From a virus: DNA of 64,000 nt. Below are positions 10,841 to 46,185 of this stretch, one piece after another. Every line of letters starts with the position of its first letter. Positions within the stretch are counted from its first letter, which is position 1. Made by a program: the position numbers and the translations under genes. The stretch spans positions 40,028 to 104,027 of the IMG/VR virus record IMGVR_UViG_3300042731_009849; one strand, 5' to 3'. The notes under the pieces are model-generated. The model was not told the DNA's origin, searched no databases, and saw nothing but the letters and a program-made list of their open reading frames with translations.

Positions 10841-13800
10841 ATGGAAGGTACTAATTTTAAAAATGGCGTGTTGGTGACCGAGGTTGACCTTGATCGCAGT
10901 GAAGCTGCCAAAGGTTCTCAGATACTGCGTACTAGGTATGACCTGGCGTCTCGTGGTGTTGTTAGTGGTGGTTCTATAACTGTAAATGCTCTTAATACGG
11001 ATAGGGTTGATATTGCTGCGTTCTCTGGTTATACTCCTAGAGGTGATTATGTCAGCGCTACTGCTGCTACAAACAATGTACCACTCTCCAGCAGCGTTGC
11101 AGGCACTCGTAACTACGTTCTTGCGATATATACGGAAATTCTTACAGGCAGCAAGCCTCATGAGTCTAACGGGTTGACTTATTCTACTCATATAAACGCT
11201 TCATACAGGATCGTAGTGCTGACAGAAGCAGAGTATAACAATCCTTCAGAGATCTCACCTTCTGACAATAACTTAGCTAACAATGCTGTTGACAGAGCGC
11301 TTTTGTTGGGTATAGTAACTGCGACAGGAGGATCTCTGACTGCTGCCAATATTGAAGGGCCTATCCCTTTTAACAATCTTTTGTATACCAATCCTGTAGA
11401 TATCCCTTCTATGGCAGGTGTGAATATTCAATTTGTAGATGTTCTTACGGAAACAGGCACAGGAACTCTTGAGTATCAGTACACATTATCCGGTTATCAG
11501 TTGAGGTGGGCATCACCTGGTAATGTTGCAGGTGCTTGGGTGAATTGGACTGTGGATGGGGAAAAAACAGTAACAGATGCATCAGGTAGATACATATCCG
11601 TTTATATGGCAATCTCTCAAATGAGCACCACTGGAACCTTTCCTTTTGTTGAGTTAATTGAGATTGTAGATTTATATAAACAAGATGTCCCTAGAAATAC
11701 AGCAGAGGATTGGCTTCATAGGAAATTACGTGGTACAGGTATCGTTTCTGAAAAGAATCCTCACGGATCCAGTCTGAATGATTTATCTGGAGAGTCTTTG
11801 TTTTTACTGGATGAGCATCAGGATGTAATGCATTGCAACGGAGTATGGAAAGGCTCTACGAGTACAGTACTTCTACCTTATGTTATCCCTTCGTCACCTT
11901 ATGATACTCTTGGCATAAACGTTCCTGCAACAGGTGATCTTTATTATATTAATGGAAAAAAATTAACAGATCTAGATGCTTCATCTTTTGCATTTACTCC
12001 TGCTACTGCTGGTGTTGTCAGCTCCATGTGGGAGGTGTATGCTACAGATGAAGGTGGTGCAGATGTTAATAAAAAAATGGAATATCCTCCAGCGCGTCTG
12101 CTTAGAGGGACTTGGATAGTTAATTCCTCGGATAACTACCCTGCAGGGTCTTATTTACTAAAAGTTGTTGTATCAGGAACATCCCCGTTAAGCTTCTTTT
12201 TTTCGTGGGATGGTGGTCCTAGCGTTCTTATAAAAGAAGGATCAGCAGATCAGGTAATACGTCTTTACTCAGCAAACGGTTATCAGTACATTGATATATG
12301 GGTTCGCACAGCTTCTTCCGGGATAACTGATGCATATCTCCCTTCCTCACCAGGAACCTATCAAGATTCTATTACGGTATATGACTCTCCTTCGTGGAAT
12401 GATAATCTTTTGCTGGGAAATATTCCATACTGGTATGACGCAGTTACTTTACAAACTTTTGTCGGTTATGCTCCGTATTCTGTGGCCAGATCTGTTGTAG
12501 ATAGAAGGGTATTTGGTAATATTTGTGCTGATAATATTAGTGATTCTTTTCTTCAGGATTACATTTATCACGCAAACGATGAGTTAAGTGCTTCAGGGGT
12601 ACTTCTGGAGAGGGACTCTAAAGGGTATCACAGTTTTTCCTATGTGAACACCACTGGTTTTTCTGTTTCAGTAAAAGGAGGCAGCTCTTATTGTAGAGGA
12701 AAAAGACTATCTTCAGAAGATACTGTACTAACACTCTTGGCTAATAAAGAGTTTATGACATATGTTGAGGCGGGTACAGGATCTTTGCAGTATTTGAATA
12801 TAACAGATGATTTTGCAGGATCTCGATTGGAGGCTTTGAGGTATCTCGTAGGAGATGGATCTTTTAGGCCTAATGTTTCTTCCGATTATACTGCTACAGC
12901 TGTGTATGCAGGGCAGGGTAGTCCTGAAAGAGGTGTACCTCTTCATATATTTACCACAGATTCATCCTCATTAGACGTTACTGCTACAATAGAACTGGTG
13001 AGAAATGTTAATGAGGTTTCGGATATCTGGAGTGTAGGGTCTTCTTTTAAAACTGCATTTACTTCTCTGGAGGCTGCCTTTCTTTATGCAAACCTTTATG
13101 ATGGATCTTGTGTAGAGATTAAGGTACTGGGAGATGTTGTTGTCAAAGAAGAAATCACCCAACCTTCTCACGTTACAGTGTCCGGTACCTCCGCAGACGC
13201 TTCAGTGTCATTTGCTAATTATGGAACATGGACTCCTTCTAATTATGTGTGGCGTTTATCTAGCGGTAGTATTGTAAAAGATTTGTCAATATCTTCTACT
13301 GTGAGTAACGTTGAGTACATTTTCGGGATAAATACAAAGGTTTCTATTCAAAACTGTGTCATATCTTGTACTTATGATACTTTTGTGTTTAACGGAGCTT
13401 CAGTCGCTACTGTAGATAGCGTTCGTTTTGTTAATAATACCGTTGAAGCACAGGGGTTGGTAAATCCAAACACTTTTTCTCCCAGCAAGGCGGATTATTG
13501 GGTTGTCTCTGGAAATACTTTTTACACATCTAATACAGGTTTTACTGTTCAATATGCAGGGTTGGTTGCAGGACCTTTTTCCAACTCAACTATTTCCAAC
13601 AATACGTTTTTTGTTGAAGGTAAGGGTAGTTTTGTAGGAGGTGCAATATCTCTGTACACATCATCAAATGTCAGCATTACAGGGAATACTATTGAAATAG
13701 ATGAGAGTTCTGGTTCTGTCGAAGAGCCTGCTATAATACTGAAGGAAACAACCTCAGTAAATATCAGCGGGAATGTTGTAAGCAGGTACTCTTCCAGTAC

Positions 13801-15508
13801 TACTCGTGCAGCTATAGGCGTTTATGCTTATGATACTTCTGATATTACGGATTTATCGATTACAGGAAACACTTTCCGAGGGTTGCATACTGGTGTATTG
13901 TTTGAGTACGATGCAGCGCTGTATAATGTATCTATCTCTTCAAATAATTTTAGAGAGATGTACGGTAGTATGGTAAACGTAGCTGCGATCACTTGTTCAG
14001 GTGTTTCTATCTCGAACAACACCGCAAGCGATTTCAGGTACAGCTCCTCTTCATTATCTTCCTACCCTTATATAGCAGGAATAAGAGTGGCAGTTGGGGG
14101 GGTTGGTTCTTCCGTTGATGGGTTGGTTATATCAGGGAACAACCTGTCAGATTTCCAGTCATCTGATGTGTCCTTAGGCGGTATACTCATCAACTGCAGT
14201 TCCCAATGTAATACTAGGTCAATAACAATAAACAGTAATGTTTTTGATTCTTTTGAGTATACCTCTTCTTCAAAACTTCCTTTATATGGAATTTCGGCAG
14301 CGATAAATGGAGTTAATATTTATAATGTAGATATTTCTAAAAATATATTTTCCGGGTTCTTTTCTACAAATTATCATGTAACTATGATGAATCTGTTAAG
14401 CAACCCTTCGTCAGGTACAAAATCAACGTTTACAGTGGAAGGTAATTCTATTGGGTACACTATATTCAATGACACTGGAGCAGACAGTGTTCAGTCATAT
14501 GGCATTTCGTTAGCAGGTAATTCAAGTGCAGGGAAGGCGGTTGTTCAAGGGAATACAATAAATGTTAAATCTTCCTATGTAGATACTTCTTCTGCATCAT
14601 ACAAGCCTGTTGCATTAAAGCTTTCTGGCTTTTTGGAATTTCTTTTGGCAGATAATGTTATAGATTACCTGGACTCAGGATCTTATTATGCTTTGAGTGG
14701 GGGCGGTATTGTAATTGAAGAAGCCTTGGCTACAGGAGAGATCAGAGGAAACTCTATAAAAGCTCATCAGTGGGGTATTACGTTAAATGAGTGTAATGGT
14801 GTGCGGGTTCTTTCTAATAAAATACAGAGCAGTACTTCAGGGATATTTGCGTCTTTCAATACAGGTTTTGTTGAAGTATGTGATAACGATGTAGCGCTTA
14901 TTCCGAGGGCAGATTACCCTTCTGCTGGTTTGAATAATGTACCTAACGGAGCGTGGTGTATTGGAGTATTCTCTCGGGGAGGTTTTAATATTTCTCGTAA
15001 TCATACATCTACTACAGATACTGTTGAGCGTATAGGAGGTAACCTTCCAACGGCTACGTACAAAGCATATCATATTATTGCAGAGATTGGTGATTCTGTA
15101 TCCGCTTCTGTAGGACGAATGTATGTAGTCGATAATAATTATTTAGATATGGTCAGTCAGGGTACCAACTCAGGAAACTATTCCATGTCCGGTATTTATT
15201 TTACAGTAGGTGCCTACTACAATTCAGCAAGAACTCATGCAATTTCGGTACAAGGGAATACTATTGTAGGAGGAAATTATGTAGGTGGTTCTTTGCCTGT
15301 TTTATACAACTCTGCCAACGAGCCTACTGTTATCTATTTCGCGGATCTTCCACTTCCTTCAGCAGGTACGGCCAGATATGTGATTTCCAATAATATTACT
15401 CATCAGACAGAAGTAATTGGGTCCTCACATGTTGCAGTGGTTAGTGATTATAGTTCAATATTCTCTCTAGGTACTAATACTGATGCAGTTTTAGTAGCTC
15501 CCTGGTAA
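10841..15508 (+). CDS. Tail fibre / tailspike with right-handed beta-helix
   Basis: 1555 residues, start ATG with an ideal AAGGAGATATA ribosome site. Residues 1-190 form an N-terminal attachment module of a kind common in phage fibres (AAFSGYTPRGDYVSA; VLAIYTEI). About residues 190-260 repeat a beta module shared with the upstream protein. From about residue 750 to the C terminus there are many NosD/pectate-lyase-like rungs (SITGNTIEI, SISNNT, VSGNTFYTS), characteristic of a right-handed parallel beta-helix as in tailspikes. A glycan-binding or -depolymerising role is inferred from that fold; no catalytic residues can be assigned by eye. Confidence 0.7.
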   Translation: MEGTNFKNGVLVTEVDLDRSEAAKGSQILRTRYDLASRGVVSGGSITVNALNTDRVDIAAFSGYTPRGDYVSATAATNNVPLSSSVAGTRNYVLAIYTEILTGSKPHESNGLTYSTHINASYRIVVLTEAEYNNPSEISPSDNNLANNAVDRALLLGIVTATGGSLTAANIEGPIPFNNLLYTNPVDIPSMAGVNIQFVDVLTETGTGTLEYQYTLSGYQLRWASPGNVAGAWVNWTVDGEKTVTDASGRYISVYMAISQMSTTGTFPFVELIEIVDLYKQDVPRNTAEDWLHRKLRGTGIVSEKNPHGSSLNDLSGESLFLLDEHQDVMHCNGVWKGSTSTVLLPYVIPSSPYDTLGINVPATGDLYYINGKKLTDLDASSFAFTPATAGVVSSMWEVYATDEGGADVNKKMEYPPARLLRGTWIVNSSDNYPAGSYLLKVVVSGTSPLSFFFSWDGGPSVLIKEGSADQVIRLYSANGYQYIDIWVRTASSGITDAYLPSSPGTYQDSITVYDSPSWNDNLLLGNIPYWYDAVTLQTFVGYAPYSVARSVVDRRVFGNICADNISDSFLQDYIYHANDELSASGVLLERDSKGYHSFSYVNTTGFSVSVKGGSSYCRGKRLSSEDTVLTLLANKEFMTYVEAGTGSLQYLNITDDFAGSRLEALRYLVGDGSFRPNVSSDYTATAVYAGQGSPERGVPLHIFTTDSSSLDVTATIELVRNVNEVSDIWSVGSSFKTAFTSLEAAFLYANLYDGSCVEIKVLGDVVVKEEITQPSHVTVSGTSADASVSFANYGTWTPSNYVWRLSSGSIVKDLSISSTVSNVEYIFGINTKVSIQNCVISCTYDTFVFNGASVATVDSVRFVNNTVEAQGLVNPNTFSPSKADYWVVSGNTFYTSNTGFTVQYAGLVAGPFSNSTISNNTFFVEGKGSFVGGAISLYTSSNVSITGNTIEIDESSGSVEEPAIILKETTSVNISGNVVSRYSSSTTRAAIGVYAYDTSDITDLSITGNTFRGLHTGVLFEYDAALYNVSISSNNFREMYGSMVNVAAITCSGVSISNNTASDFRYSSSSLSSYPYIAGIRVAVGGVGSSVDGLVISGNNLSDFQSSDVSLGGILINCSSQCNTRSITINSNVFDSFEYTSSSKLPLYGISAAINGVNIYNVDISKNIFSGFFSTNYHVTMMNLLSNPSSGTKSTFTVEGNSIGYTIFNDTGADSVQSYGISLAGNSSAGKAVVQGNTINVKSSYVDTSSASYKPVALKLSGFLEFLLADNVIDYLDSGSYYALSGGGIVIEEALATGEIRGNSIKAHQWGITLNECNGVRVLSNKIQSSTSGIFASFNTGFVEVCDNDVALIPRADYPSAGLNNVPNGAWCIGVFSRGGFNISRNHTSTTDTVERIGGNLPTATYKAYHIIAEIGDSVSASVGRMYVVDNNYLDMVSQGTNSGNYSMSGIYFTVGAYYNSARTHAISVQGNTIVGGNYVGGSLPVLYNSANEPTVIYFADLPLPSAGTARYVISNNITHQTEVIGSSHVAVVSDYSSIFSLGTNTDAVLVAPW

Positions 15509-15577: not shown

Positions 15578-16804
15578 TTGCGAAAAGCTAAAGATAAAAA
15601 CAAAAAACTGACAAAATGGGAAAAGGAATTTTTGACGTGCAAGAGCTGCGGCAGCACTTATTCAACAGAAGGAGGCCTTCAGAGGCACAAAACACGTGCA
15701 CATCATTGGTCTGCTAAACCAGATAAAGCGATGCAGGAAAGGGTAGAGGCAGCCCGTAAGGAAGCTTTTAAGCAGCTCATTGCCCCAGATCTGCCATCTA
15801 CTGTTGAAGTGGAGTCCAGTGCTGCTTCAGTGCAGCCGGAGTCTCCCAATACTGAGAAAGTTCTGAAAAAGATGGTGGATAAGGCGATGAAGGATAGACA
15901 TCGTAATATCTATTTGAAGACTCAGGAGCTGGAGACCGTTGCGAGGCTTGCGGAGAAAATACCAGTTTTATCTGAAGAAGACAAGTCAGAACTAAGGAAA
16001 GAGCTGTACATTTCTGATTTGGTTGAGAAAGAAAAGAAAGAGACTTTTATAGATCCTGTTGTTTGTGGCATTAAAGCCGTTCACCCAGGTACTGTTCTCA
16101 GGCTGCTGGGGAGGGTGTTGGTGAAGTCTCCCGATAACTCATTTACTTATACAGATATTGATTCCCCTACTGTCGGACTGGTTTCCAGGAGATGGGCAGA
16201 CGCTCAGGATGTTATTTACCTGGACGTGTCTACAGACGACGGGGTTTTTGTTGTCAGTGAGTTGCTGGTGATACCTGTTTTTGGGGAGTCACAGATAAAG
16301 ATTCTTCAGTATGGTGAGCATAAGGATCTGTATACTAAAAAATCAATTGGGACCGATGCAGAGTCTCTTAAGTTCTATAATGCATTGAATCATTATTATG
16401 AGGCTCAGGATCGATATGAGTCAGCAAAGAAACATTGGGATTGGGTGAAATATCAGACAGGTTATATTATAAAAGATTACCTGGAAGAGTACGGGCTGCC
16501 TCTGGCAGAAGGTGGTAAAGATCGCCTGATTAAAGACTCAGGCTTTGAAGCCTATTATTCATATGAAGAAGGTCGTACCAAGCCTATGGTTAGAACTGAC
16601 GCATTAATTGCAACTTTAAAAAATAAAGGCTTGCGTCATTTGATGAAGACAGAGTATGTTGTTGATGAGCAGCTCTGGAGAGATTTGAAGAAGCGGGGAG
16701 TCTTTACAGAGGACGAAATTGAAATGCTTGAATATAAAAAGACACTAAAGCCTGTTCGTGATCTTACTGTGAAACGGATAGATGCTGTGAAGGAGGGTGA
16801 ATGA
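15578..16804 (+). CDS. C2H2 zinc-finger-containing protein of unknown function
   Basis: 408 residues from a TTG start with AAGGAGG ten bases upstream. Residues about 24-46 carry a classical C-x2-C...H-x4-H finger (CKSCGSTYS, QRHKTRAH), unusual in phage proteins and suggesting nucleic-acid or protein binding. Then follow a charged helical region (about 50-150), a beta-rich domain (about 155-260) and a helical C-terminal part with YESAKKHWDWVKYQTG and RHLMKTEYVVDEQLW. I do not recognise the family. It is the first gene of the replication block and overlaps the nuclease gene by four bases, so a DNA-transaction role is plausible. Confidence 0.6.
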   Translation: MRKAKDKNKKLTKWEKEFLTCKSCGSTYSTEGGLQRHKTRAHHWSAKPDKAMQERVEAARKEAFKQLIAPDLPSTVEVESSAASVQPESPNTEKVLKKMVDKAMKDRHRNIYLKTQELETVARLAEKIPVLSEEDKSELRKELYISDLVEKEKKETFIDPVVCGIKAVHPGTVLRLLGRVLVKSPDNSFTYTDIDSPTVGLVSRRWADAQDVIYLDVSTDDGVFVVSELLVIPVFGESQIKILQYGEHKDLYTKKSIGTDAESLKFYNALNHYYEAQDRYESAKKHWDWVKYQTGYIIKDYLEEYGLPLAEGGKDRLIKDSGFEAYYSYEEGRTKPMVRTDALIATLKNKGLRHLMKTEYVVDEQLWRDLKKRGVFTEDEIEMLEYKKTLKPVRDLTVKRIDAVKEGE

Positions 16805-18282
16805 AGCGAATAGTGTTGGTTGATGGCAACCCTTTAATGTGGAGAGCTGCATATTCCAAAGGGGTTTCTACGGTTACTGAGAACATCCTGAAGTATTTTT
16901 TCAATATAGTAGGTACTTTTTCTGACTTTGAGTTTATCGTATTTTGGGATGAGGGTAAATCTCGTTGGAGATCTGATCATTATACGCAGTACAAGGAGCA
17001 CAGGGAGGAGACCAAGAAAAACTTTGATATGGCAGAGCTTAAGAGGCAGAAAAACGATGCCAGGAAGTATCTGGAGTACTTTGGTTTACGCAATCTCTGC
17101 GTAAATGGTGTGGAGGCGGATGACGTAATAGCAGTACTTTCAGAGTACTTTTCCAAATGTTTGAATTATGATCAGGTTATTATCGCATCAAAGGATCACG
17201 ATCTGTGGCAGCTGGTAACAGGATCGGTATCTCTTTACGATCCAATGGGGAGATCTTATACAGATCTGAATGGGGTCCATGAATACTTTTCAGCAGGACC
17301 TGAGGAGATTGGAAGCATCAAAGCCCTTGTGGGAGATCCGTCAGACAACATTAAAGGCGTCAAAGGGATCGGGGAGAAAACAGCAGGTAAACTTCTTCAG
17401 GATTTTGGTGGTCTGGAGGGTCTTATGTCAGCAGAGAATGCCAAGGAACTGAAGAAGAGAAAGACAACTGAAAAGATTCTCAACCTGTCGGAGGATATGG
17501 AGCTCTCCTATCAATTGGTAAAATTACCAAATCTGTATAATTTCTCTTATTACCTCAACGATGAAGAATTGGATTCCTTGAAAGATCAATGTACCAGGGT
17601 TCTATCGAAGGATTTAATCAGAGCTCGTACAGAAGCGGACCTTCTTGGAATCTCAATGGGCAATTGTCCCCGAGATGGTTTTAGTGGTCTTGATGCAGAA
17701 CTGCAGGAGTTCTCCAAAACCTGGTTGAATCCTTTTAGGGTTTACATAGATCTCCTTTTGAAGGACCTTGACAGATGTATTGCTTCCTGCCAACGGTGCA
17801 TGACAGGTGTTAAACCTGTTCTTCCTGAAGGTCGTGTAGGCGCTGATTTTATGGTTGTAACACGCTCATCTTCCTCAGACAGGTCTATGGTGCAGAAAGT
17901 TCTTGACGGGCTTGAGATAGCTCCTGAGAGGGTTTGGTGGACGTATGTCAGTAAATGCCCTGGAAAGCTACCTTTGACTTACGGAAGAATGAAGTGCTGT
18001 TCAGATTTTTTGATGACGGAAATCCACAGCATTAAACCTAAGATGATTTTTGCTCTGGGGTTGGAAGCTATGTCAGTGCTCACTCCTTTGAAAGGAAGGC
18101 CTTCAAAGCACTCCGGTGAGATCCTTGACAGGCCTGAAGGAATCTTTGGAAAGGTTGACAGTATTGTTTCAGTGCTTATAGATCCTGATCTGGCATTGAG
18201 GAGTGATCAGCGAAGGGTTGATTGGATGTTTGGTGTGCAGAAGGTTATGGAATTTTTTAGAAAGAAAAGGGAGCAGCAATGA
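16801..18282 (+). CDS. 5'-3' exonuclease (FEN) fused to a family-4 UDG-like domain
   Basis: 493 residues. Residues 1-270 are a FEN/PolI-type 5' nuclease: VLVDGNPLMWRA at the N terminus, VEADDVIAVLSEYF near 104, ASKDHDLWQL near 130 and the H3TH segment GDPSDNIKGVKGIGEKTAG near 178. Such nucleases remove RNA primers and flaps. Residues about 320-485 match the iron-sulfur UDG-4 superfamily: C-x2-C at about 330/333, SKCPG near 386, CCSDFL near 398 and IKPKMIFALGLEAM. The catalytic GEAPG-type motif is replaced by TRSSSSD and the HPS-type motif by IDPDLAL, so glycosylase activity is doubtful; DNA or cofactor binding is more likely. Confidence 0.75.
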   Translation: MKRIVLVDGNPLMWRAAYSKGVSTVTENILKYFFNIVGTFSDFEFIVFWDEGKSRWRSDHYTQYKEHREETKKNFDMAELKRQKNDARKYLEYFGLRNLCVNGVEADDVIAVLSEYFSKCLNYDQVIIASKDHDLWQLVTGSVSLYDPMGRSYTDLNGVHEYFSAGPEEIGSIKALVGDPSDNIKGVKGIGEKTAGKLLQDFGGLEGLMSAENAKELKKRKTTEKILNLSEDMELSYQLVKLPNLYNFSYYLNDEELDSLKDQCTRVLSKDLIRARTEADLLGISMGNCPRDGFSGLDAELQEFSKTWLNPFRVYIDLLLKDLDRCIASCQRCMTGVKPVLPEGRVGADFMVVTRSSSSDRSMVQKVLDGLEIAPERVWWTYVSKCPGKLPLTYGRMKCCSDFLMTEIHSIKPKMIFALGLEAMSVLTPLKGRPSKHSGEILDRPEGIFGKVDSIVSVLIDPDLALRSDQRRVDWMFGVQKVMEFFRKKREQQ

Positions 18283-24376: not shown

Positions 24377-25744
24377 TTGCTTCATGTAAATATTCAATCA
24401 GAGATCCTGGCAGCTGTTTTAAAAGGTGACTTCTCTGACAGAGATGTTCTCTCTCATGTAGAGCCTGGTTTTTTTAATGTGGATTCTTATAAATGGCTTG
24501 TGAAGATTCTAAAAGATCGTAAGTGGCAGCCTGTTGTCTGGGAGTATGTAGATCCGTTGCTGGTTGAGTCTTTTAAAGAGGATGAAGACAAACTGGAAGT
24601 CTACAGAAATCAGATATGGAATCTGTATGGAAGAGAACTTACTTTCAAGGAAGATGCAGTACGGGATTTTGTTCAGTTTGTTGCAGTCTCAAAAGTAAAG
24701 GCAGGTATCAAGGATTCCTTTGATTCCTTCGAGAAATCAAACAGAGCTGATTTTCTGTTTCATGGAATCAATAAGGAGTTGGCAAGTGGTAGATCTATTC
24801 TTGAGGGATCTGGAATAGAAGTGGTGGATTATGCGGATGGTTTTGATGAGCGTCAGAAAGAGCGTTTGTATTTGCGGGATAACCCTGATGTGAATCCCGT
24901 TGTTAAAATGGGTTTTAGAGAAATGGATGACCAGTTTGAGATAAAAGGTGCTGTAATTGTCAACTTTCTGGCACCGTTCAAATCATACAAGTCCATATTT
25001 CTCAATGATATCAGTGCTGCGGCTCTTATGCAGGGGTTCAACGTTGTTCACATAATTCTCGAAAACTCTGTTGAGATGACTCAGAACAGATATGATGCGT
25101 ATTTCAATCAGATTAACTACGATAGGTTGAAGGCAGGTGCTTTGACTCCTGATGAGCTGGGTACGCTGAAAGAGCGTATGGGTTGGGTGAACAGCTGGTC
25201 AAACCGGCTGAAGATCATTAAAGGCGTTTCCAAGAAAACCAATATTTATGATATTGAAGACAGATTGGCACGTCTTGAGGAGAAGGAAGGATTTGTACCT
25301 GACGTGGTAACTCTTGACTATGCGAACATTCTTGCATGTTCAGATAGATCCATACGTGAGGAAAACCTGAAGCAGGGGCAGATTCTGTGGGACATTAAAT
25401 ACCTGGTTGAGAAAAGGAAGTGTCCATTCTTTACAGCGACTCAGACAAACCAGGAAGGGAATAAGGCAGTACGTCAGATTTCCAAAAATGAGCTGACCAA
25501 AAAGCGTGTTGACTCTACTCACCAGGGAAAGGCTATTGATATTTCCCAGGCAGTGGATTATACTTTTGCCATTAATCAGACTCCTCAGGAGAAAGAGGAG
25601 CAGATAATCATGCTTGAGGCGTTGCTTGTGCGTGATGGTGATATTAAACAGCGAGAAGTTTATTTGGACTGTGACATTCCAAAGATGATGGTCTCCCGAG
25701 ATGTTGATTACCTGTGGGAGATAGCAAAGGAAGTACATATATGA
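24377..25744 (+). CDS. DnaB-like replicative helicase with altered P-loop
   Basis: 455 residues from a TTG start with GGGAGG upstream. N-terminal 150 residues are helical, like the DnaB N-terminal domain. The RecA-like core starts near residue 175 (VVKMGFREMDDQFE), with the Walker A region LAPFKSYKSIF (about 197-207), in which the Gly normally before the Lys is Tyr. ILENSVEMTQNRYDAYF follows, then Walker B LDYANIL (about 313-319) and FTATQTNQEGNKAV. Position directly after the loader gene and before primase supports replicative helicase. Whether it hydrolyses ATP normally is open because of the P-loop change. Confidence 0.75.
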   Translation: MLHVNIQSEILAAVLKGDFSDRDVLSHVEPGFFNVDSYKWLVKILKDRKWQPVVWEYVDPLLVESFKEDEDKLEVYRNQIWNLYGRELTFKEDAVRDFVQFVAVSKVKAGIKDSFDSFEKSNRADFLFHGINKELASGRSILEGSGIEVVDYADGFDERQKERLYLRDNPDVNPVVKMGFREMDDQFEIKGAVIVNFLAPFKSYKSIFLNDISAAALMQGFNVVHIILENSVEMTQNRYDAYFNQINYDRLKAGALTPDELGTLKERMGWVNSWSNRLKIIKGVSKKTNIYDIEDRLARLEEKEGFVPDVVTLDYANILACSDRSIREENLKQGQILWDIKYLVEKRKCPFFTATQTNQEGNKAVRQISKNELTKKRVDSTHQGKAIDISQAVDYTFAINQTPQEKEEQIIMLEALLVRDGDIKQREVYLDCDIPKMMVSRDVDYLWEIAKEVHI

Positions 25745-27579: not shown

Positions 27580-28391
27580 AATTTTCAGAAGATTTATTGT
27601 CCCGGATGGCATCATATCTTAAAGCCATCTCAAAATCAAAAGACTTTGATGATTCCTTCCGTAAGGCGGTTATGGAGCATCAGAAGGTTATGGTTAAAAA
27701 AGCACTTATAACTGCTCGTCAGTTCAAAACAGATCCTGATGAGATACTGCAGTACCTTGTAATACGTCTGTGGGAGGATATGGGCGGTTTTTACGACAAG
27801 AACGTGCTGGTGGATGGTGTGGTTTGTCGGAAGCTTGGAGAGACTCCTGAGGGTGTTTACGTGCAGCATCACAAGATTAAGAGCATTGTACCAAAGGATC
27901 AGGTTTTTCCTGCTACCTGGAAAATATATGTTGCATTCTTTTATCGACGTATTGGTCAGATGTGTGCAGATTATGCAGCATACTGTAACAGGGAAAAAAG
28001 AGGTTCAAAGGTTGACATCTACTCATTGGACACCAGTTCCTGTTCAGACGATGATGACGGTTACACTTTAATGGATGTAACACAGGGTGACAAAGGGGAT
28101 CCTGAGAGCATCCTGATCTGTGAAGAGATCCGGGAAAAATTATATCAACGTTTGTCAAATAAAGCTAAAAGGTACCTTGACATGATTGAATACCTTCCAC
28201 CAGGTCCTCTTGAGGGTTGGTCAAAACCATCAAAGCTTTACATGAAGGAACTGCGGCACGCTGAAGCGGAAGTGCACAGAGTATTCAACAAAGTGATGTT
28301 TTCAGATGTTGACAATGATCAAAAAGAACTTATGGTTGGTCTGGGAGGAAGGTCTCCTGTATTTTTCAACACGGATACGGTGCTGAGATGA
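27576..28391 (+). CDS. Sigma-factor-like protein (probable)
   Basis: 271 residues from a GTG overlapping the primase stop. Two blocks resemble sigma region 2: ITARQFKTDPDEILQYLVIRLWEDM (split here as ITARQFKTDPDEILQ and YLVIRLWEDM, about 45-69) and FFYRRIGQMCADYAAYC (about 122-138) followed by NREKRGSKVDIYSLD. A later block, ICEEIREKLYQRLSNKAKRY, resembles region 4.1. A roughly 55-residue insert lies between the region-2 blocks. If correct, it could direct host RNA polymerase to phage promoters such as those in the 48-62 kb part. Similarity is by pattern only. Confidence 0.4.
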   Translation: MKFSEDLLSRMASYLKAISKSKDFDDSFRKAVMEHQKVMVKKALITARQFKTDPDEILQYLVIRLWEDMGGFYDKNVLVDGVVCRKLGETPEGVYVQHHKIKSIVPKDQVFPATWKIYVAFFYRRIGQMCADYAAYCNREKRGSKVDIYSLDTSSCSDDDDGYTLMDVTQGDKGDPESILICEEIREKLYQRLSNKAKRYLDMIEYLPPGPLEGWSKPSKLYMKELRHAEAEVHRVFNKVMFSDVDNDQKELMVGLGGRSPVFFNTDTVLR

Positions 28392-29548
28392 GTTTAGTTA
28401 TTGCTGATAAAAAGATAAAAGGGTCATTCGATTTCTTTTCAGATTTCTTCAAAGCTGTGGATACCTCCATTGCTGACAAAGGAATTGTTTACATATCAGT
28501 TGAAGACAACACTCTTTCAATGTACTCTGAAGACAAGATTGACGGAATCTCTGCAGGAGTATCTGTATCTTTGAATACCAAAGTACCTGCAGCATGTGAG
28601 CCTTTTTACTTTGGAGTGGATGCAGAGCGTGTTGTTGCATTTTTTAAAAAACTGTATCCAGGTGAAGTCACTATTACTCTGAAAAACAACAAAAAAGGCA
28701 ATACGGTAGAATTTAAGGAAGACAACATAAAAGCATCTTTTGTGGTTGTGGCGAAAAAGAGAAGAATTAGATTACCTGAGCTCAATAGGATTGAAGGAGA
28801 TTCCTGTCAATGGATAGTTGAAGGTGTTGGAGATTGTTTGTCTGCCATTTCCGAGACTTCAAAAAAGGGATCTGTCAATAAATTTGCAGGAATTCTTGTG
28901 GATACTAAAGGGGGTGTCAGCAGGATCTGTAAATTCTCTCAAATATCCTTTTATCTTAAAACAGGAAATGCATTATTTACTGGGGATTCTCGGTTTATTC
29001 TTCCTGATACGTTGGCAAAGGTGTGCAGATCTTTTAAAAAGTCTGTAAAGAGCATAGTGCTTTCTTCCTCCACCAATATTGCCGGAGTTGAGCTCACCAA
29101 TGGTACTTTGATAACTCTACCTGTTCCTCATGATTCATACCCGTTGGAATATGCAAGCCATTTCTCACTAACCAACAATTCACGTTTGCAGGAGCTAAGA
29201 GAGTGCTACAAACTGGACGCTTCAGCATTGGCTTCAGCAGTTGATTTGGTCACTTCTTCATTAGGTCCTACTGATTCCTGGATAACTTTTAAGATACTCG
29301 GACAATCCGGTGACAGTCTTGTGTGGGAGATTTCAGGAAAATCTCACAAAGGTGTGGAGGTTTCAGAGAAAATACTGAGCTCTCACGGGAAGGTTGTTGA
29401 AGGGTTTATGTTAAACAAGGAAAGGCTGTCAAAGGCTTTAAACCTGTTTAAGGATGAAATATATTTATGTGATCTAAACTCCTCTGTAGCGGCTTTTACT
29501 GATGCGGAAGGGTACAGGGTCTCATTACTCGTAAAGGCGGCAATATGA
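28388..29548 (+). CDS. DNA polymerase sliding clamp (beta/DnaN-like)
   Basis: 386 residues, close to DnaN length, ATGA-coupled to the upstream gene. Three similar-sized segments alternate strands as in beta clamps; the middle segment has FAGILVDTKGG ... FILPDTLAKVC, matching the DnaN pattern for the second domain, and the C terminus ends in a strand (GYRVSLLVKAAI) like the DnaN tail. It would tether the family A polymerase encoded downstream and be loaded by the DnaX-like protein at 34.8 kb. No subunit-specific residues can be checked by eye. Confidence 0.7.
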   Translation: MSLVIADKKIKGSFDFFSDFFKAVDTSIADKGIVYISVEDNTLSMYSEDKIDGISAGVSVSLNTKVPAACEPFYFGVDAERVVAFFKKLYPGEVTITLKNNKKGNTVEFKEDNIKASFVVVAKKRRIRLPELNRIEGDSCQWIVEGVGDCLSAISETSKKGSVNKFAGILVDTKGGVSRICKFSQISFYLKTGNALFTGDSRFILPDTLAKVCRSFKKSVKSIVLSSSTNIAGVELTNGTLITLPVPHDSYPLEYASHFSLTNNSRLQELRECYKLDASALASAVDLVTSSLGPTDSWITFKILGQSGDSLVWEISGKSHKGVEVSEKILSSHGKVVEGFMLNKERLSKALNLFKDEIYLCDLNSSVAAFTDAEGYRVSLLVKAAI

Positions 29549-30228: not shown

Positions 30229-30698
30229 AACAGAAACTTATTTTGATGATGGGAGTTCCTGGATCTGGAAAATCCACACATGCCAAAAAATATCTTGACG
30301 AGAATACCGTTATTATCAGCAGAGATTCCTTGAGAGAAATGATCCGTGGTGAATATGTGTTTGATGACAAGTATGAGCCTTTCATTAAGGATCTTGACAG
30401 GTACGCAATCAAAAAAGCTCTGGAGGATGGATTTAGTGTTATTGTGGATGAAACGAACGTGTTTGAGTCCTCCCGTCTTTCTCTGGTAGCCGTTGCTGAA
30501 GAAATGGGTGTGGAGTCCTGGCTTATTTGGGTTATTACTGACATTGATACTGCCAAGGATCGTAGAAGAGATGAGCCGAGAGTTTATGAGCCTGGTACAT
30601 GGGATGTGATAATTGATAAGCATAATGAAATTCTTCAGGAACCTCAGGATGATGAAATTTCAAAATATGCTTTCTTCAAAATTATCAGAAATTCATGA
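30225..30698 (+). CDS. P-loop kinase (polynucleotide-kinase-like)
   Basis: 157 residues. Walker A GVPGSGKSTHAKKYL (about 8-22), then ISRDSLREMIRG, and VIVDETNVFESSRL, with an RRRDEPR lid-like stretch near residue 118. This layout matches the AAA_33 / T4 PNK kinase family, which phosphorylates 5' ends of nucleic acids or small substrates. No phosphatase domain follows. It sits between the clamp-proximal gene and the polymerase gene. Substrate cannot be told from sequence. Confidence 0.75.
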   Translation: MKQKLILMMGVPGSGKSTHAKKYLDENTVIISRDSLREMIRGEYVFDDKYEPFIKDLDRYAIKKALEDGFSVIVDETNVFESSRLSLVAVAEEMGVESWLIWVITDIDTAKDRRRDEPRVYEPGTWDVIIDKHNEILQEPQDDEISKYAFFKIIRNS

Positions 30699-32887
30699 AT
30701 TTTTTTAACAAACTAAAGATCCCTAAGAGTTACCATCTTGTCGACACGCCAAAGAAGCTGTCATGGATGTACAATACTCTATTGAAGACTCCTTACATGG
30801 CGTATGATATTGAAACAACACATCCAACAGTTAAGAGTAAGGATAAAAAACAGGATTATGTTTCGGGAACTCCTGTTAGAGTTGCTGGTGTGGCGTTTTC
30901 ATGGGGAAGAACCTCTGTAAGTACTCCCTGGGAGCCTGGTACAGGGGCTTATTTACCTTTAATACGTATGGATGAATCTCCTTTCTGGCGTTCTAATCAA
31001 AAGAACGTTGATAAGGCCTTAAAAGGTATTTTGGAGAGTCCTGTTGCAAAGGTGGCTCATAATGGGAAATTCGACTCTAGGGAACTGCTCAGAAAAAAAG
31101 GCATTGAGGTTCAGAATTTTAAGTTTGACACAATGCTTGCACATGCTCTCCTGGACGAAGAGCGCAGAGAGTGCTCACATGCTTTGAAATCAGATTTTGC
31201 CCCTGATGGAAAAGTAACCAAATTGGGAATGGCGGATAAGTACCTGGATTTAGGCGCTTCAGCGTTTAAAGAAGATCTTCAGGATGCTTTGGTTCATTTT
31301 GATCCTGATCTGAAGAGGTATCACAAAGTTCCTTTGGAGGTTTTGTATCCATATGCTTGCGCAGATGCTGATTTGACATTGTCTCTGATGTTCATTATGC
31401 GTCCTCGTCTTATTGAGGAGAAGACTTACTGGGTGTTTAATAACATTTCTCTTCCTTTGTCTGACGCTTTGGTGCGTATGGAGTCCAAAGGAATGCCTCT
31501 AAATATTCAAAAGGCCAGGGAAGTGGAATCAAACATGCTTCGAGATATGAAGAGTCTTGAGGCAGAAATCTGGGAGCTGACAGGACAGGAGTTCAAGGTT
31601 TCTTCCAATCCTCAGCTCGGTAAGGTTCTGTTTGAGGACTTGCAGCTTCCTGGTGGACGGCGTAATAAACATGGTTGGGTTGTGGATGATTCCGTTCTGA
31701 AGGAGCTGGAACATCCTGTCAAAGAGCCTCTGTCCAAATACAGAAGAGCTCAACAGATTCAGTCTACATACGCTTCACCTGCTATTGTAAAGGTTGATGA
31801 AGTCTCAGATGGTGGAAAGGTTGGATGGGTGCATCCTTCTGTGTTTATGGATTCTCTGACAGGCCGGTTGAAAGGTAGTGATCCAAACCTGATGAATCTT
31901 CCCCGGAAAGAGAACGGAGGAAAGATCGTTAAAGGTATGTGGGAGTGTCCGGATGACTATGTTTTTATTTTCAGTGACTTTTCGCAGATGGAGTTGCGGG
32001 TAGCTGCTCATGTATCTCAGGAGCCTGTGTGGATTGATTCATTTAATCGTGGTGAAGATATGCACTCAGCTACAGCAAAATCTGTATTCAAGCTTGATTG
32101 TGATGTTGCAGAGGTCCCCAGTCACTTGAGAAGCCGTGCAAAAACTATTAACTTTGGTATTATTTACGGAGAGAGCGTATGGTCTTTGTCAAAGTCTCTT
32201 GATATGGAGATAGAGGAAGCTGAAAAGCTTGTAAATGTGGACTATTTTGGAAACGCGCCTGTGCTGAAAGAATGGATTGATTACATTCATTCTTTCGTTC
32301 AGGAAAACGGATATGTAGTCAATATGTTCGGCAGACGTAGACACCTGCCCACAGCACAGCTACAGGTACCTCATTACAGGAGTATGCCAAAGTACAATGA
32401 TCGCCCTGAGTGCTACAAATTCTGCATCAAACCTATGGATATCGGGTTGAGCCAGAACGATGCGTACGAAGTTGATCTTGACAGTTTGAAAAGAATGATT
32501 AAATCTTCCGGGAAGCCTCACTACTTTAAGTGTGCAGACTGTCAGTACCTGGGAAGTTGTTTTCCAAACTCGGAGACTCGTTACATTGACCAAACGAAGA
32601 AGCATGCACTCAGACAGTCAGTTAATACAATTGTACAGGGATCTGCTTCAGACATGGCGGCATTATCTTTGATTAAAATTGATGAACAGATTAGGAAAGA
32701 GAAGCTGAGATCTGCGGTAGGTAATATTGTGCATGACGAAATTTGCTGCATTACTCATAAGGATGAGGTTGAGAGGGTTGGTCAGATAATGCAGTACTAC
32801 ATGACAGACTGGCTCAGAGATTTTACAGGGTTTTCAGTTCCTCTTATTGCAGATCTGGAAGTTCACAAATGCTGGGGTGATAAATGA
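30695..32887 (+). CDS. Family A DNA polymerase with 3'-5' exonuclease and a Cys-rich insert
   Basis: 730 residues; 5' nuclease is encoded separately at 16.8 kb. Exonuclease motifs: YDIETTHP (about 36-43), VAHNGKFDSREL (about 120-131), YACADADLTLSL (about 218-229). Polymerase motifs: A, SDFSQMELR (about 427-435); B, RAKTINFGIIYG (about 482-493); C, VHDEICC (about 681-687). Between motif B/GRRRHLP and the conserved NTIVQGSASD an insert of about 75 residues (roughly 557-635) carries five Cys (ECYKFC and KCADCQYLGSC), absent from PolI of Escherichia coli. All catalytic residues appear present. Confidence 0.92.
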   Translation: MNFFNKLKIPKSYHLVDTPKKLSWMYNTLLKTPYMAYDIETTHPTVKSKDKKQDYVSGTPVRVAGVAFSWGRTSVSTPWEPGTGAYLPLIRMDESPFWRSNQKNVDKALKGILESPVAKVAHNGKFDSRELLRKKGIEVQNFKFDTMLAHALLDEERRECSHALKSDFAPDGKVTKLGMADKYLDLGASAFKEDLQDALVHFDPDLKRYHKVPLEVLYPYACADADLTLSLMFIMRPRLIEEKTYWVFNNISLPLSDALVRMESKGMPLNIQKAREVESNMLRDMKSLEAEIWELTGQEFKVSSNPQLGKVLFEDLQLPGGRRNKHGWVVDDSVLKELEHPVKEPLSKYRRAQQIQSTYASPAIVKVDEVSDGGKVGWVHPSVFMDSLTGRLKGSDPNLMNLPRKENGGKIVKGMWECPDDYVFIFSDFSQMELRVAAHVSQEPVWIDSFNRGEDMHSATAKSVFKLDCDVAEVPSHLRSRAKTINFGIIYGESVWSLSKSLDMEIEEAEKLVNVDYFGNAPVLKEWIDYIHSFVQENGYVVNMFGRRRHLPTAQLQVPHYRSMPKYNDRPECYKFCIKPMDIGLSQNDAYEVDLDSLKRMIKSSGKPHYFKCADCQYLGSCFPNSETRYIDQTKKHALRQSVNTIVQGSASDMAALSLIKIDEQIRKEKLRSAVGNIVHDEICCITHKDEVERVGQIMQYYMTDWLRDFTGFSVPLIADLEVHKCWGDK

Positions 32888-34816: not shown

Positions 34817-35908
34817 GTGTCTTATCAGGTTCTTGCCAGGAAGTATAGGCCACAGGTATATTCAGAGGTAATCGGGCAGGATGTCTCAGTTACCATTATG
34901 AAGAACTCCATTAAAATGGGCAGAGTTCCTTCAGGTATGCTTATCTCAGGGGTACGTGGTACAGGTAAGACGACTCTGGCAAGAATTTACGCAAAGTCAT
35001 TAAACTGCCAGAGTTCTCCTCCTGGGGAAGATCCTTGCAGAACCTGCCCGTCTTGTATAGATGCTGAAAACGACACTCATCCGGATATTTTTGAGTTTGA
35101 TGCAGCCTCAAACAACGGGGTTGATTTTGTCCGATCCTTCGAGGATTACGTGTTACGTGTCAAGACCTACAACAGGAAAGTGTTTATTTTCGATGAAGTG
35201 CACATGTTCACTCCTCAGGCTCAGGCAGCTTTCCTGAAACTGCTTGAAGAGCCGCCTCAGGGTGTTACTTTCATTCTGGTAACCACAGATCCTGAAAAGC
35301 TTGTCAGAACAGTGCGTTCCAGGTGTCTGTCCATGCCTTTAACTCCTCTTACGGTGGAAGGTGTGGCAGAATCAGTAAAAAGAATTCTTCAGAGTGAAAA
35401 TATCCCCTTTACAGATTCTTTTATCTCTGACATATCTTTACTGAGTGACGGATCTTTAAGGGACGTCCAGCAATATCTTGATCAGGTTATTCTGGCATCG
35501 AACGGGGATACTTTGGATTCTGGTTTGTTGGAGAGTATGTTTGGTATTCTCTCAGGAAGTGTTTACAGGGATCTGGCAGGGGTTCTTAATTTTTGGAACG
35601 TTAAGTACGCATTGCAAACTCTGGAGAACTGGTATTCAAATGGGGTTGATCTGCAGAAGTTGTATCTTGACGGAATTCCTAACTTGCTGAGAGACATGTT
35701 GCTTTATTTGAACGGTTTTGATGGGAAGGCTCCTCCTTTTTTGTCAGGAATTCCTGTGGAATCTTTTAGGAAGAAGATGAAATTAAACGCTGATCATATC
35801 AAGTATTTAACAAATGTATGGAAGGAGTTCTCTTCTATGATGGAAGAATCTGGTTACCCAAAAAGTATTTTCACCATGTTTTTTGCTGCTGCATTTGGTA
35901 ACAATTAG
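34817..35908 (+). CDS. dnaX: DNA polymerase III gamma/tau-like clamp loader (DnaX)
   Basis: 363 residues from a GTG start. AAA+ features: Walker A GVRGTGKTTLARIYAK (about 45-60), zinc-binding block CRTCPSCIDAE (about 74-84, plus upstream C), DEVHMFTPQAQ (about 125-135), sensor FILVTTDPEKL, and SRC arginine-finger region VRTVRSRC. The length is that of the gamma form without tau extension. It loads the beta-like clamp encoded at 28.4 kb. Delta and delta-prime genes are not obvious; the downstream 128-residue protein could be an accessory subunit, but that is a guess. Confidence 0.9.
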   Translation: MSYQVLARKYRPQVYSEVIGQDVSVTIMKNSIKMGRVPSGMLISGVRGTGKTTLARIYAKSLNCQSSPPGEDPCRTCPSCIDAENDTHPDIFEFDAASNNGVDFVRSFEDYVLRVKTYNRKVFIFDEVHMFTPQAQAAFLKLLEEPPQGVTFILVTTDPEKLVRTVRSRCLSMPLTPLTVEGVAESVKRILQSENIPFTDSFISDISLLSDGSLRDVQQYLDQVILASNGDTLDSGLLESMFGILSGSVYRDLAGVLNFWNVKYALQTLENWYSNGVDLQKLYLDGIPNLLRDMLLYLNGFDGKAPPFLSGIPVESFRKKMKLNADHIKYLTNVWKEFSSMMEESGYPKSIFTMFFAAAFGNN

Positions 35909-38416: not shown

Positions 38417-39751
38417 ATGAAAATAACTTACAACGCACCTGCGGCAGCACGTACTGAAGTTGAAGGTACTTCCTCCGCAACAAAACTGACCAGAATGTAT
38501 AAACCCCTGCCCCATCAGACGGGTAAATCATTCACCAATGAACTGTATATTCCTCTGTATCAACCGGATATGTGGAAGATCTTTAACAAGACACCTGAAG
38601 AGGCGGAAGCACTGGGCCTTGTTGCAGGAAACCCACTGGCACCTCGTCAGGGAGAGGATCCTGTCTACACCTATCACTTCAAGATTCCTGTACACTCCAT
38701 TGACAAGTACGAGCGTGAGGACGGGTCTACAGGTTTCCATACTTTCATTTGTCCCAATGAGTTCAACAAGTACCTTACTCAGGTCTGGGGAAAATCCAAG
38801 ATGTTCAAGGACGGGTCCTGCCCGTTCTGTAAAGCACGTAAACAGGCCTGGGATGATCACAATGAGCGCTGGACACAGGTACTGGAGGATCGTGGACTGA
38901 TAGAGAAGCCTAAAGGAAAGGCTTACAAATCCATTGTTGATTCTGATCCGATTCTCAGTGAGACTTTTATCGCTGCTACCAGGACGTATGAAGTATCTGA
39001 CAAGTATATTACTCAGGTAGTTGACTACGGACGAATCAAAGGAACTGTTCAGATCCCTGAGGGGGAAGATGCAGGCTATCAGTACTGGATTACTCCTACA
39101 AGCATTGTTAAAATGCTTAACAAGTTTTATGAGAAAGCAGCTGATAAAGGCCATCTTCCGTTTTTTGTTTTTGATGATCCAGAAGGGTTGCGTTTGATTG
39201 AAGTAGATAAGGATACAACCAAATGCAGCAATAATAATTTCAGAGATACTGATTATACAGTAACTCTCGGGGATTATGTGCAACCTGAAGAGGCTTGGAA
39301 GACCTATATGACAAGCCTTTCCAACATGGCTGATCCTTCAGAGATTATTAGCATCCTCACTGCTGAAGAAATGCAGCAGTACATTGGGGGGTCTTCTTCG
39401 TCTGCCAACGTTCCTGCCCAGAGTATGAACGCGTATATCCCTAAACAGGCAGCTGTGGCAGCTCCTGCAGCACCTCCTATGGTTCCAGGTATGACAGCAC
39501 CTCCTGTAGCTCAGACAGCACCTCCTGTAGCTCAAACAGCTCCTCCTGTAGCTCAGACAGCTCCTCCTGTAGCTCAAACAGCTCCTCCTGTAGCTCAGAC
39601 AGCTCCTCCTGTAGCTCAGACAGCTCCTCCTGTAGCTCAGACAGCTCCTCCTATGGTTCCCAGTGTTCCTGGAATGTCTGCAGACGCTGAGCCTGATGTG
39701 TTTGATCTTCCTGACAGGGGTGAAGCAGGCGACCAGCCTGAAAAATGGTAA
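38417..39751 (+). CDS. gp32-like single-stranded DNA-binding protein
   Basis: 444 residues, strong AAAAGGAG site. A zinc site like that of T4 gp32 is visible as H-x3-C ... C-x2-C: FHTFICPNEF (about 108-117) and GSCPFCKARKQAW (about 133-145). The central part is the expected OB-fold length. After residue 350 comes an Ala/Pro linker containing seven tandem APPVAQT copies, ending in an acidic tail (DVFDLPDRGEAGDQPEKW), the place where SSBs bind partner proteins. It coats replication-fork ssDNA for the polymerase, helicase and RecA encoded nearby. Confidence 0.7.
   Translation: MKITYNAPAAARTEVEGTSSATKLTRMYKPLPHQTGKSFTNELYIPLYQPDMWKIFNKTPEEAEALGLVAGNPLAPRQGEDPVYTYHFKIPVHSIDKYEREDGSTGFHTFICPNEFNKYLTQVWGKSKMFKDGSCPFCKARKQAWDDHNERWTQVLEDRGLIEKPKGKAYKSIVDSDPILSETFIAATRTYEVSDKYITQVVDYGRIKGTVQIPEGEDAGYQYWITPTSIVKMLNKFYEKAADKGHLPFFVFDDPEGLRLIEVDKDTTKCSNNNFRDTDYTVTLGDYVQPEEAWKTYMTSLSNMADPSEIISILTAEEMQQYIGGSSSSANVPAQSMNAYIPKQAAVAAPAAPPMVPGMTAPPVAQTAPPVAQTAPPVAQTAPPVAQTAPPVAQTAPPVAQTAPPVAQTAPPMVPSVPGMSADAEPDVFDLPDRGEAGDQPEKW
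39494..39640 (+). repeat. Seven tandem 21-bp repeats in the SSB gene
   Basis: Seven in-frame 21-bp units encode T-A-P-P-V-A-Q. Units differ only at synonymous third positions (CAG/CAA, GCA/GCT), so the array expanded recently or is kept uniform. It lengthens the flexible linker before the acidic tail. Confidence 0.95.
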
Positions 39752-45121: not shown

Positions 45122-45359
45122 ACCAACATATAATCACGAAGCACACAAGCGTGCACAGGCGGCTGGACAGTCTAAATCCAAGACTGCCTACAGGTACATT
45201 GATGGTGATATTGTTATTATTACAGGTCCTTATACAGATCGTAAGATAACGGATCTTTGGAAAAACGGTACTGCTGATGATCGTGATTTTTTGTTTAAGG
45301 AGTTTTGGAAAAAAGACCCTGCTGCCAGGGAGATTTTAGTAAGGTGTTGTGCAAAATGA
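45111..45359 (+). CDS. Small hypothetical protein
   Basis: 82 residues from a GTG inside the upstream gene, ending at the start of the first of three tandem paralogues. Basic N terminus (KRAQAAGQSKSKTAYRY), then an acidic/aromatic part (DFLFKEFWKKDPAAREI). No recognised domain; ribosome site weak, so translation may depend on coupling. Confidence 0.45.
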   Translation: MENKPTYNHEAHKRAQAAGQSKSKTAYRYIDGDIVIITGPYTDRKITDLWKNGTADDRDFLFKEFWKKDPAAREILVRCCAK

Positions 45360-45616
45360 AAAAGTTGAGTGTTTGGGTGTGTGCAGTGGGAGTTGTGGCA
45401 GCTTACAGCGAGGATGATGCTCTGTCTTTATGGGAAGGTTTATTCAGAGGTAAGTACGATTTGTTTGACGGTAAAGTTAAGTACGTTTTTACTGAAGTTG
45501 CAGATAGTGTAGATTTGTCAATTTTTGACAGAAATACAAAAGAAGAGGTTACGATGAAAGCTTATGAATGGGTTGCTCTGAACGGTCGTGGTCTTCTTTG
45601 CATCTCGGAGTTTTAG
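45356..45616 (+). CDS. Tandem paralogue A (MKKLSVW family)
   Basis: 86 residues. Shares MKKLSVW, a -AAYSEDDALSLWEGLF- core and the C-terminal WVALNGRGLLCISEF with the two genes that follow. Function unknown; a single compact alpha/beta domain is likely. The start overlaps the previous stop (ATGA) inside the 34-bp repeat. It differs from B and C mostly in the central segment. Confidence 0.7.
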   Translation: MKKLSVWVCAVGVVAAYSEDDALSLWEGLFRGKYDLFDGKVKYVFTEVADSVDLSIFDRNTKEEVTMKAYEWVALNGRGLLCISEF

Positions 45617-45632
45617 AAGGGTGTTGTGCAAA

Positions 45633-45893
45633 ATGAAAAAGTTGAGTGTTTGGAAAAGTGAAATGGATAGTATTGTCGCGTACAGTGCAGAAGATGCATT
45701 AACTGTATGGTGTGATTTCTTTGGTGAGGACTTTATTGCGTTCGAAGGAAGGATAGGTTATGTATTTTCTGAAGTACCTGATGATCAAGAGATTACAATT
45801 ATGGATCTTGATACGGAAGGGAGAACTACCATGAAAGCTTGTGAGTGGGTAGGTTTAAACGGCAGAGGTATTCTTTGTACCTCGGAGTTTTAG
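45633..45893 (+). CDS. Tandem paralogue B (MKKLSVW family)
   Basis: 86 residues, second copy. Core -VAYSAEDALTVWCDFFGEDF- and tail WVGLNGRGILCTSEF. Closer to C than to A in the core, so the order of duplication is probably A first, then B/C. No known domain. Confidence 0.7.
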   Translation: MKKLSVWKSEMDSIVAYSAEDALTVWCDFFGEDFIAFEGRIGYVFSEVPDDQEITIMDLDTEGRTTMKACEWVGLNGRGILCTSEF

Positions 45894-45909
45894 AAAGGTG
45901 TTGTGCAAA

Positions 45910-46185
45910 ATGAAAAAGTTGAGTGTTTGGTCTAATGTTTGGAATACTGTAATAGCGTATAGTGCGGAAGATGCATTAAAGGTATGGTGTGATTTTTTTG
46001 GGGAGGATTTTAAAGAATGCAGAGAAACAAAAGGTAATGCTTCTTTTATGTTCTCTAAAGTTGATGATAGCGTAGATATTATCTTTATGGATCCTGCTGG
46101 TAAAAAGCTGACTACAAAGAAAGCTCCGGAGTGGGCAGCTTTGTACGGCAGAGGTCTTCTCTGTACCTCAGAGATTCCACAATGA
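45910..46185 (+). CDS. Tandem paralogue C (MKKLSVW family)
   Basis: 91 residues, third copy, with a short insert (ECRETKGNASFMF) and an extra two residues at the end (SEIPQ). Core -IAYSAEDALKVWCDFFGEDF-, tail LYGRGLLCTSEI. ATGA-coupled to the resolvase gene. Divergence in the middle with conserved ends suggests selection for surface variation. Confidence 0.7.
   Translation: MKKLSVWSNVWNTVIAYSAEDALKVWCDFFGEDFKECRETKGNASFMFSKVDDSVDIIFMDPAGKKLTTKKAPEWAALYGRGLLCTSEIPQ

Follow-up and report, generated by a model that had tools for sequence, protein, structure and literature searches.

A phage FEN-type nuclease joined to a UDG-4-like domain with degenerate catalytic motifs

A nuclease and a glycosylase-like domain in one gene

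The viral DNA examined here, a window of 64,000 nucleotides (positions 40,028 to 104,027 of IMG/VR record IMGVR_UViG_3300042731_009849), codes on its plus strand for a protein of 493 aa (16801-18282, no internal stops) in which a FEN-type 5' nuclease is followed by a C-terminal domain with the predicted fold of the family-4 uracil-DNA glycosylases (UDG-4). UDG-like appendages on phage replication enzymes are of a known kind; FEN as their carrier is, as far as we have searched, new. The gene is preceded by AGGAGG (16791-16796), shares ATGA overlaps with both its upstream and its downstream neighbour, and occurs a second time, in a 163-kb IMG/VR contig. The DNA of that contig is 100% identical to the window across the 32.1 kb compared (10801-42884), and it thus represents the same lineage and no independent case.

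The nuclease domain occupies residues ~1-260 (16801..17580; this and the following parts of the gene all lie on the plus strand) and is matched by PF02739 (9.1e-25) and PF01367 (3.6e-21), both in excess of the Pfam cut-offs. The best match of this part in the PDB is Taq polymerase (6.8e-25, residues 3-242). Nine acidic residues, D8, D50, E105, D107, D108, D132, D134, D179 and D182, are invariant in an alignment of the FEN of the window with six relatives, and the metal ligands of FEN presumably fall among them. Judged by its sequence, the nuclease part of the fusion looks intact. The same 260 residues resemble SPO1 gp32.85 and the 5' nuclease of Taq Pol I, neither of which has a UDG-like C-terminal domain. 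A linker (residues ~261-324, 17581..17772), predicted with low confidence to be mostly helical, leads to the C-terminal domain.

Predicted fold of the C-terminal domain

The UDG-4-like domain covers residues ~325-493 (17773..18279) and is delimited by matches to TIGR00758, NF040953 and PF03167 together with a fold model. With the whole protein, PF03167 (UDG) scored 21.4 bits against a cut-off of 24.3, and in a six-frame search of the record 24.2 bits, or 24.3 with neighbours, that is, at the cut-off. The domain alone was matched by TIGR00758 (UDG family 4, 2.0e-6) and NF040953 (1.4e-6), both far under the cut-offs of these models (for TIGR00758, 27.6 bits against a curated 125.3), while the whole protein alone reached UDG-4 chains of the PDB at E 0.29 and worse. 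When named phages were searched with the domain by tblastn, 15 records were matched (E up to 10), annotated as DNA polymerase in 11 cases, as a nuclease in none and without annotation in two. The three best matches (5e-6 to 2e-5) include Lebethron, annotated as a DNA polymerase, and STP12, a polymerase by our reading of its open reading frame (ORF).

A UDG fold had been proposed for this region in a first-pass annotation of the DNA, made from the letters alone, and structure prediction had been set beforehand as the test that could refute it; the prediction gave the UDG-4 fold. The C-terminal 214 residues, starting at residue 280, were modelled from an alignment with 37 relatives, obtained by reducing 113 candidate domains at 80% identity and leaving out an intein-split domain (L126), the copies of the window gene and the named-phage loci L005-L008 and L129-L132. 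A model of the full-length protein predicted from its single sequence had a mean predicted local distance difference test score (pLDDT) of 34 and was discarded. The C-terminal model has a mean pLDDT of 82.4 and a predicted template-modelling score of 0.79, with 117 of its 214 residues at 90 or above. Block values are 36-68 over its first 60 residues (protein 280-339, first cysteine pair included), of which the first 50 (280-329) take in the modelled part of the linker and lead up to the first cysteines, and 86-96 from residue 340 onwards.

The first 36 rows returned by Foldseek for this model in the PDB are all UdgX or family-4-type UDG entries (best E 1.1e-10). By VIA-align, the family-4 UDG 4zbx aligns over 172 residues at 3.0 A with Z 19.4; Z is 18.9 for 1ui1, of the same family, and 17.1 for the UdgX 6ioa. 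Of predicted viral proteins, 29 match the model with E values no higher than 0.001, and most of those with a name are UDGs or DNA polymerases of phages. A profile of the structure alignment matches family-4 UDGs of the PDB at 9.7e-44, a value owed to the alignment as a whole rather than to the window sequence by itself. The alpha/beta fold of a family-4 UDG is thus present in the predicted model, which supports a UDG-4 fold for the C-terminal region.

Catalytic motifs and iron-sulfur cysteines

In family 4, motif A is GE(A/G)PG and motif B is HPS or HPA; UdgX is marked by GEQPG and a KRRIH loop (excerpts of PMC10359453). These elements were tabulated in an alignment of 38 rows, comprising the window domain, nine domains attached to PolA, three unattached and 25 of a DnaE class. 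Assignment to the DnaE class is based on Pfam for L055 and L104 and, for the rest, on membership of a DnaE-derived search; the PolA class was assigned by reading the ORFs, and the unattached rows are those without polymerase attachment, one of which (L033) carries an N-terminal extension.

All four cysteines of the window domain stand in family-4 columns. Cys330 and Cys333 form the first iron-sulfur pair (C-x2-C, 17788..17799, block pLDDT 64), and Cys386 (17956..17958) and Cys400 (17998..18000) are aligned with the third and fourth positions. The catalytic elements are all altered: TRSSS replaces GEAPG at motif A (residues 354-358, 17860..17874), the GxPFxGxAG stretch which follows motif A in relatives is deleted, TY replaces the TN of TNxVKC (residues 381-382, 17941..17946), and DPD replaces HP[SA] at motif B (residues 461-463, 18181..18189). 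Both the four UDG-4 cysteines and the replacement of the GEAPG- and HPS-type motifs, as claimed in the first-pass annotation, are therefore borne out by the alignment, which shows the loss of the TN Asn in addition; of the features of a family-4 UDG, the domain has the four cysteines and none of motif A, the TN element and motif B. On this pattern the domain has presumably lost its catalytic activity, and it would probably still hold an iron-sulfur cluster. Like the family-4 enzymes and UdgX it has the four cysteine positions and the (predicted) fold; unlike them, it lacks motifs A and B, TN and the adjacent stretch, and is fused to FEN.

The remaining rows show how this combination is distributed. 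Four of four cysteines are kept in all nine PolA rows and all three unattached rows, and strict motif A, Asn and HP are found together in five of the nine and two of the three, respectively; one further row in each class differs within motif A only. In the other three PolA rows motif A and Asn are lost and HP is kept. Throughout the DnaE class (25/25) all three catalytic elements are lost, four cysteines are found in no row and three in five. The window domain, whose overall identity to the other rows is 18-28%, is alone among the 38 in having four cysteines and no catalytic element. The earlier view that a FEN fusion with lost catalysis is unusual therefore holds for FEN as the carrier and not for the loss itself, since the motifs are also missing from 25/25 DnaE rows and 3/9 PolA rows.

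Two further assignments were considered. A UdgX identity was rejected, the strings GEQPG and KRRIH being absent from the protein, and a clamp-binding peptide at the C-terminus is not claimed, as the candidate QKVMEFF falls inside the last predicted helix.

UDG-like domains on other phage replication enzymes

An N-terminal UDG-like domain is found on the PolA of Lebethron, STP12, SPO1 and many IMG/VR contigs; the statement, in the first-pass annotation, that phage polymerases of the SPO1 group have such domains proved correct for SPO1 gp31. As in the window, the domains of SPO1 gp31 and of the PolA of Pseudomonas phage Lebethron sit on a replication enzyme and have partly degenerate motifs; unlike in the window, they stand at the N-terminus of PolA. 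SPO1 has its FEN in a gene of its own, and no FEN was found in Lebethron. In the PDB, the UDG-like profile also matches residues 13-171 (E 2.4e-13) of 9qhs_A, a chain of 1142 aa entitled "putative DNA-directed DNA polymerase I", which is probably the solved structure of a fusion between a UDG-like domain and a polymerase; it was not among the 60 matches listed for an SPO1-type polymerase query.

Some PolA-attached domains are interrupted or incomplete. In L126 (4783-8367) an intein-like insert (PF14890, 1.2e-6, 28.8 bits against a cut-off of 35.8) interrupts the N-terminal UDG domain of PolA directly at an iron-sulfur cysteine (KC / HN-CRPP). The PolA ORFs of L297 (1315-3186) and L298 (minus strand) retain no more than the C-terminal half of the domain, and motif B of L297 reads ILDPN, so that, like the window protein, it has Asp for His.

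A second class, with the domain at the C-terminus of DnaE (L055, L104), surfaced in a search aimed at FEN relatives. Excerpts of PMC3919608 describe a DnaEX variant in which the OB domain and the C-terminal domain are replaced by a UDG domain. The DnaE-attached domain matches 32 records of named phages. Their annotation is DNA polymerase III alpha in 21 and DNA polymerase in three; it is uninformative in eight, among which are two weakly matching SPO1-like Bacillus phages. The C-terminal domain was read on DnaE in the records of SSU5, nickie, RHEph10 and BUCTxx99. For IMG/VR, the best 80 of 88 relatives (L133-L212) were retained, and in these 80 loci the domain lies at the end of the ORF, within two residues, in every case; 52 of the ORFs have at least 1100 aa by hand count, and 65 of the loci, taken with 4-kb flanks, contain a separate FEN ORF. 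In ten loci (L179, L180, L185, L188-L191, L201, L204, L206) the domain ends an ORF of 392-394 aa, where their kin have one ORF of ~1174 aa, and dnaE seems to be split at one spot in these ten. The DnaE domains of SSU5, RHEph10 and nickie resemble that of the window in being C-terminal and in having lost the catalytic elements, and differ in their carrier and in the absence of the full set of four cysteines from all 25 rows of the class.

The window domain joins these replication-enzyme-attached domains in a common alignment and matches the resulting profile at E 1.7e-32, the window sequence itself being one of the rows of that profile. For the domains on PolA and DnaE, no assigned role was found in the excerpts available from the open-licence literature.

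Search for further FEN-UDG fusions

Other fusions of this kind were sought, as the first-pass annotation had suggested, and in the collections searched only the lineage of the window, with its two contigs, has one. From two scans for FEN relatives the best 80 of at least 499 and the best 80 of at least 536 were kept, giving 160 loci, with many contigs in both. None of the 104 distinct FEN ORFs of these loci also contains a UDG-like domain, even with the threshold relaxed to E 1, and the only ORFs pairing the two are copies of the window gene. A tail of at least 120 aa beyond the FEN match occurs in 20 of the 160 loci, and Pfam found a UDG in none of the 12 long FEN ORFs to which it was applied. 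In named phages the whole protein matched 1340 records by tblastn, none covering more than 80% of its length. The plasmid collection gave no match, and the GTDB genomes gave 39 and 19 pattern hits with no relative among them; such scans depend on short conserved stretches, and distant fusions would escape them. With the phage's own polymerase as a query the sole match was the identical contig, so that no sister phage was found, and apart from this contig no close relative came to light in the collections searched. No FEN-UDG fusion was found in print either, the literature covered being open-licence only, which leaves its absence there unproven.

Phage FEN has a different kind of appendage in some of these loci. 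A RecT-like C-terminal region (PF03837) is present above the cut-off in L091, L053 and L279, with weaker matches on the FEN ORFs of L051, L061 and L220 (E 8e-4 to 0.022) and L112 (0.096); on these matches the RecT-like region is another fusion partner of phage FEN.

The number of UDG-like domains per phage was counted in 25 records chosen for carrying one, namely 22 from IMG/VR and three named phages. All 25 have exactly one UDG-like profile match, and 24 have exactly one FEN, Lebethron having none. The two lie on different ORFs in 23 of the 24, the exception being the window phage, both records of which have a single UDG-like match inside the FEN gene. As a control not chosen for UDG, 23 FEN-bearing records (contigs of 49-198 kb) were picked from the 160 loci of the FEN search. 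A UDG-like match was found in six, two of them weak (L297, L298). By reading, each of the six falls close to the N-terminal end of a PolA-type ORF; Pfam gives exonuclease and polymerase for L297 only, and the exonuclease part alone for L294 and L295.

Possible role of the domain at the replication fork

The phage codes for its own PolA (30695..32887, plus strand), consisting of 3'-5' exonuclease and polymerase (PF01612 and PF00476 only), and neither Pfam nor the profile search found a UDG-like domain in it. Its replication set further comprises a DnaX-like clamp loader (34817-35908), a DnaG-type zinc finger protein, RecA, dUTPase, an anaerobic ribonucleotide reductase and ThyX, together with a DnaB-like helicase (24377-25744) at 26.5 bits, slightly below the cut-off of 27. 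Two further proteins, to which Pfam assigns no family, resemble by eye a clamp (28388-29548) and an ssDNA-binding protein (38417-39751). FEN clears primers and flaps behind the polymerase, and cellular FEN1 has a C-terminal tail which binds the clamp and keeps the enzyme at the fork. In the case of DnaE, a C-terminal tau-binding domain serves the same end (excerpts of PMC3919608).

Against this background, we give an even chance to the most economical reading, namely that the pseudo-glycosylase has been turned to a new use, as a module which binds DNA or the replisome and holds FEN at the fork. The dead UDG domain would bind DNA or a partner at the fork and keep the nuclease in place, and the removal of RNA primers and flaps would thereby be coupled to a phage polymerase which is itself without the domain; the iron-sulfur cysteines would be retained for the structure of the domain. 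FEN is a third, unrelated carrier, on which the motifs are gone and the cysteines kept, which suggests that the domain is retained for a purpose other than base excision, and since the carriers have the replication fork in common, the fork may be where it acts. The domain would have been drawn from a pool which phages attach to their replication enzymes, at the N-terminus of PolA or the C-terminus of DnaE or FEN. A wider proposal, which is tentative and in our estimate rather doubtful, is that many phage replisomes keep exactly one UDG-fold domain, often non-catalytic, whose position among these three termini is free. Such a domain would be the phage counterpart of clamp- and tau-binding domains, replacing the OB and tau-binding domains on DnaE and the FEN1-type clamp-binding tail on FEN.

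A UDG in the service of replication has a precedent in poxvirus D4, which is of the family-1 type. Together with A20, D4 forms the polymerase processivity factor (excerpts of PMC5682278), being part of the replisome as is proposed here for the phage domain; unlike the latter, it is a separate protein, and acts with A20 on a family-B polymerase. The fusion offers a small protein for a trial of the fork-module idea, with an easily assayed nuclease and a removable domain.

Several results weigh against a fork-binding module, or against its generality. The UDG-like domain was not found in 17 of the 23 control FEN-bearing phage records, so FEN does not require it; the one-per-record pattern comes from a sample selected for the domain; and FEN as a carrier is known from one lineage only. 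Intact UDGs within the alignment used for the model favour the very fold which it returned, and the first cysteine pair was modelled at low confidence (block pLDDT 64). The tree (41 rows, three of them domains added from named phages, the window row without its first 36 residues) sets the DnaE-attached domains on one side of a branch (99/94) and leaves the window domain by itself on a branch whose length, 2.88 changes per column, is very great. Branch order places it beside the PolA-attached and unattached domains, and its nearest neighbours by path are two DnaE-attached ones; given this conflict, no origin from a particular polymerase is claimed. The domain may at some time have passed between a polymerase and FEN.

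Among the alternatives, that of a decaying relic, fused by chance and without a present role, is unlikely, although it would account for the change of three catalytic elements and the deletion beside motif A, and a stepwise decay may be seen in other phages, for example in the half-domain PolA ORFs of L297 and L298. Against decay stand the four iron-sulfur cysteines, in place despite 18-28% identity, and a core predicted at block pLDDT 86-96; moreover, phage genomes tend to shed useless stretches of 500 bp.

Quite unlikely, too, is a domain which senses damaged or deaminated bases without cutting, as a read-ahead or recruitment module bringing FEN to lesions. The predicted UDG-4 fold and the retained cysteines would suit it, as would the investment of the phage, through dUTPase and ThyX, in thymidylate supply and the exclusion of uracil from its DNA; yet every element of the base pocket, from motif A and the stretch behind it to the Asn and motif B, is changed or missing. 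The same mismatch at motifs A, B and TN, with the adjacent deletion, speaks against a still active base-excision enzyme whose active site has been altered and which would serve long-patch repair together with the flap nuclease; this reading is improbable, even though a glycosylase fold and a flap nuclease would go together sensibly in one pathway and some UDG families rely on other catalytic residues. A misassembly joining two separate genes, which the single known lineage might suggest, is hardly credible in view of the unbroken frame, the start and stop overlaps on both sides and the recurrence of the ORF in another, longer contig, even if that contig, being identical, may derive from related data.

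Neighbouring genes

The upstream neighbour of the fusion gene (15578-16804) codes for a protein of 408 aa with a weak N-terminal match to a C2H2 zinc finger (E 0.018, below the cut-off) and to no other family. A tandem trio of small paralogues (MKKLSVW..., 95-103 aa by eye) is located at 45305-46185, the first and third of which have no Pfam match at 0.01. A repeat-rich protein of 1555 aa (10841-15508), with a weak match to the NosD beta-helix (0.0024, below the cut-off), is probably a tail protein.

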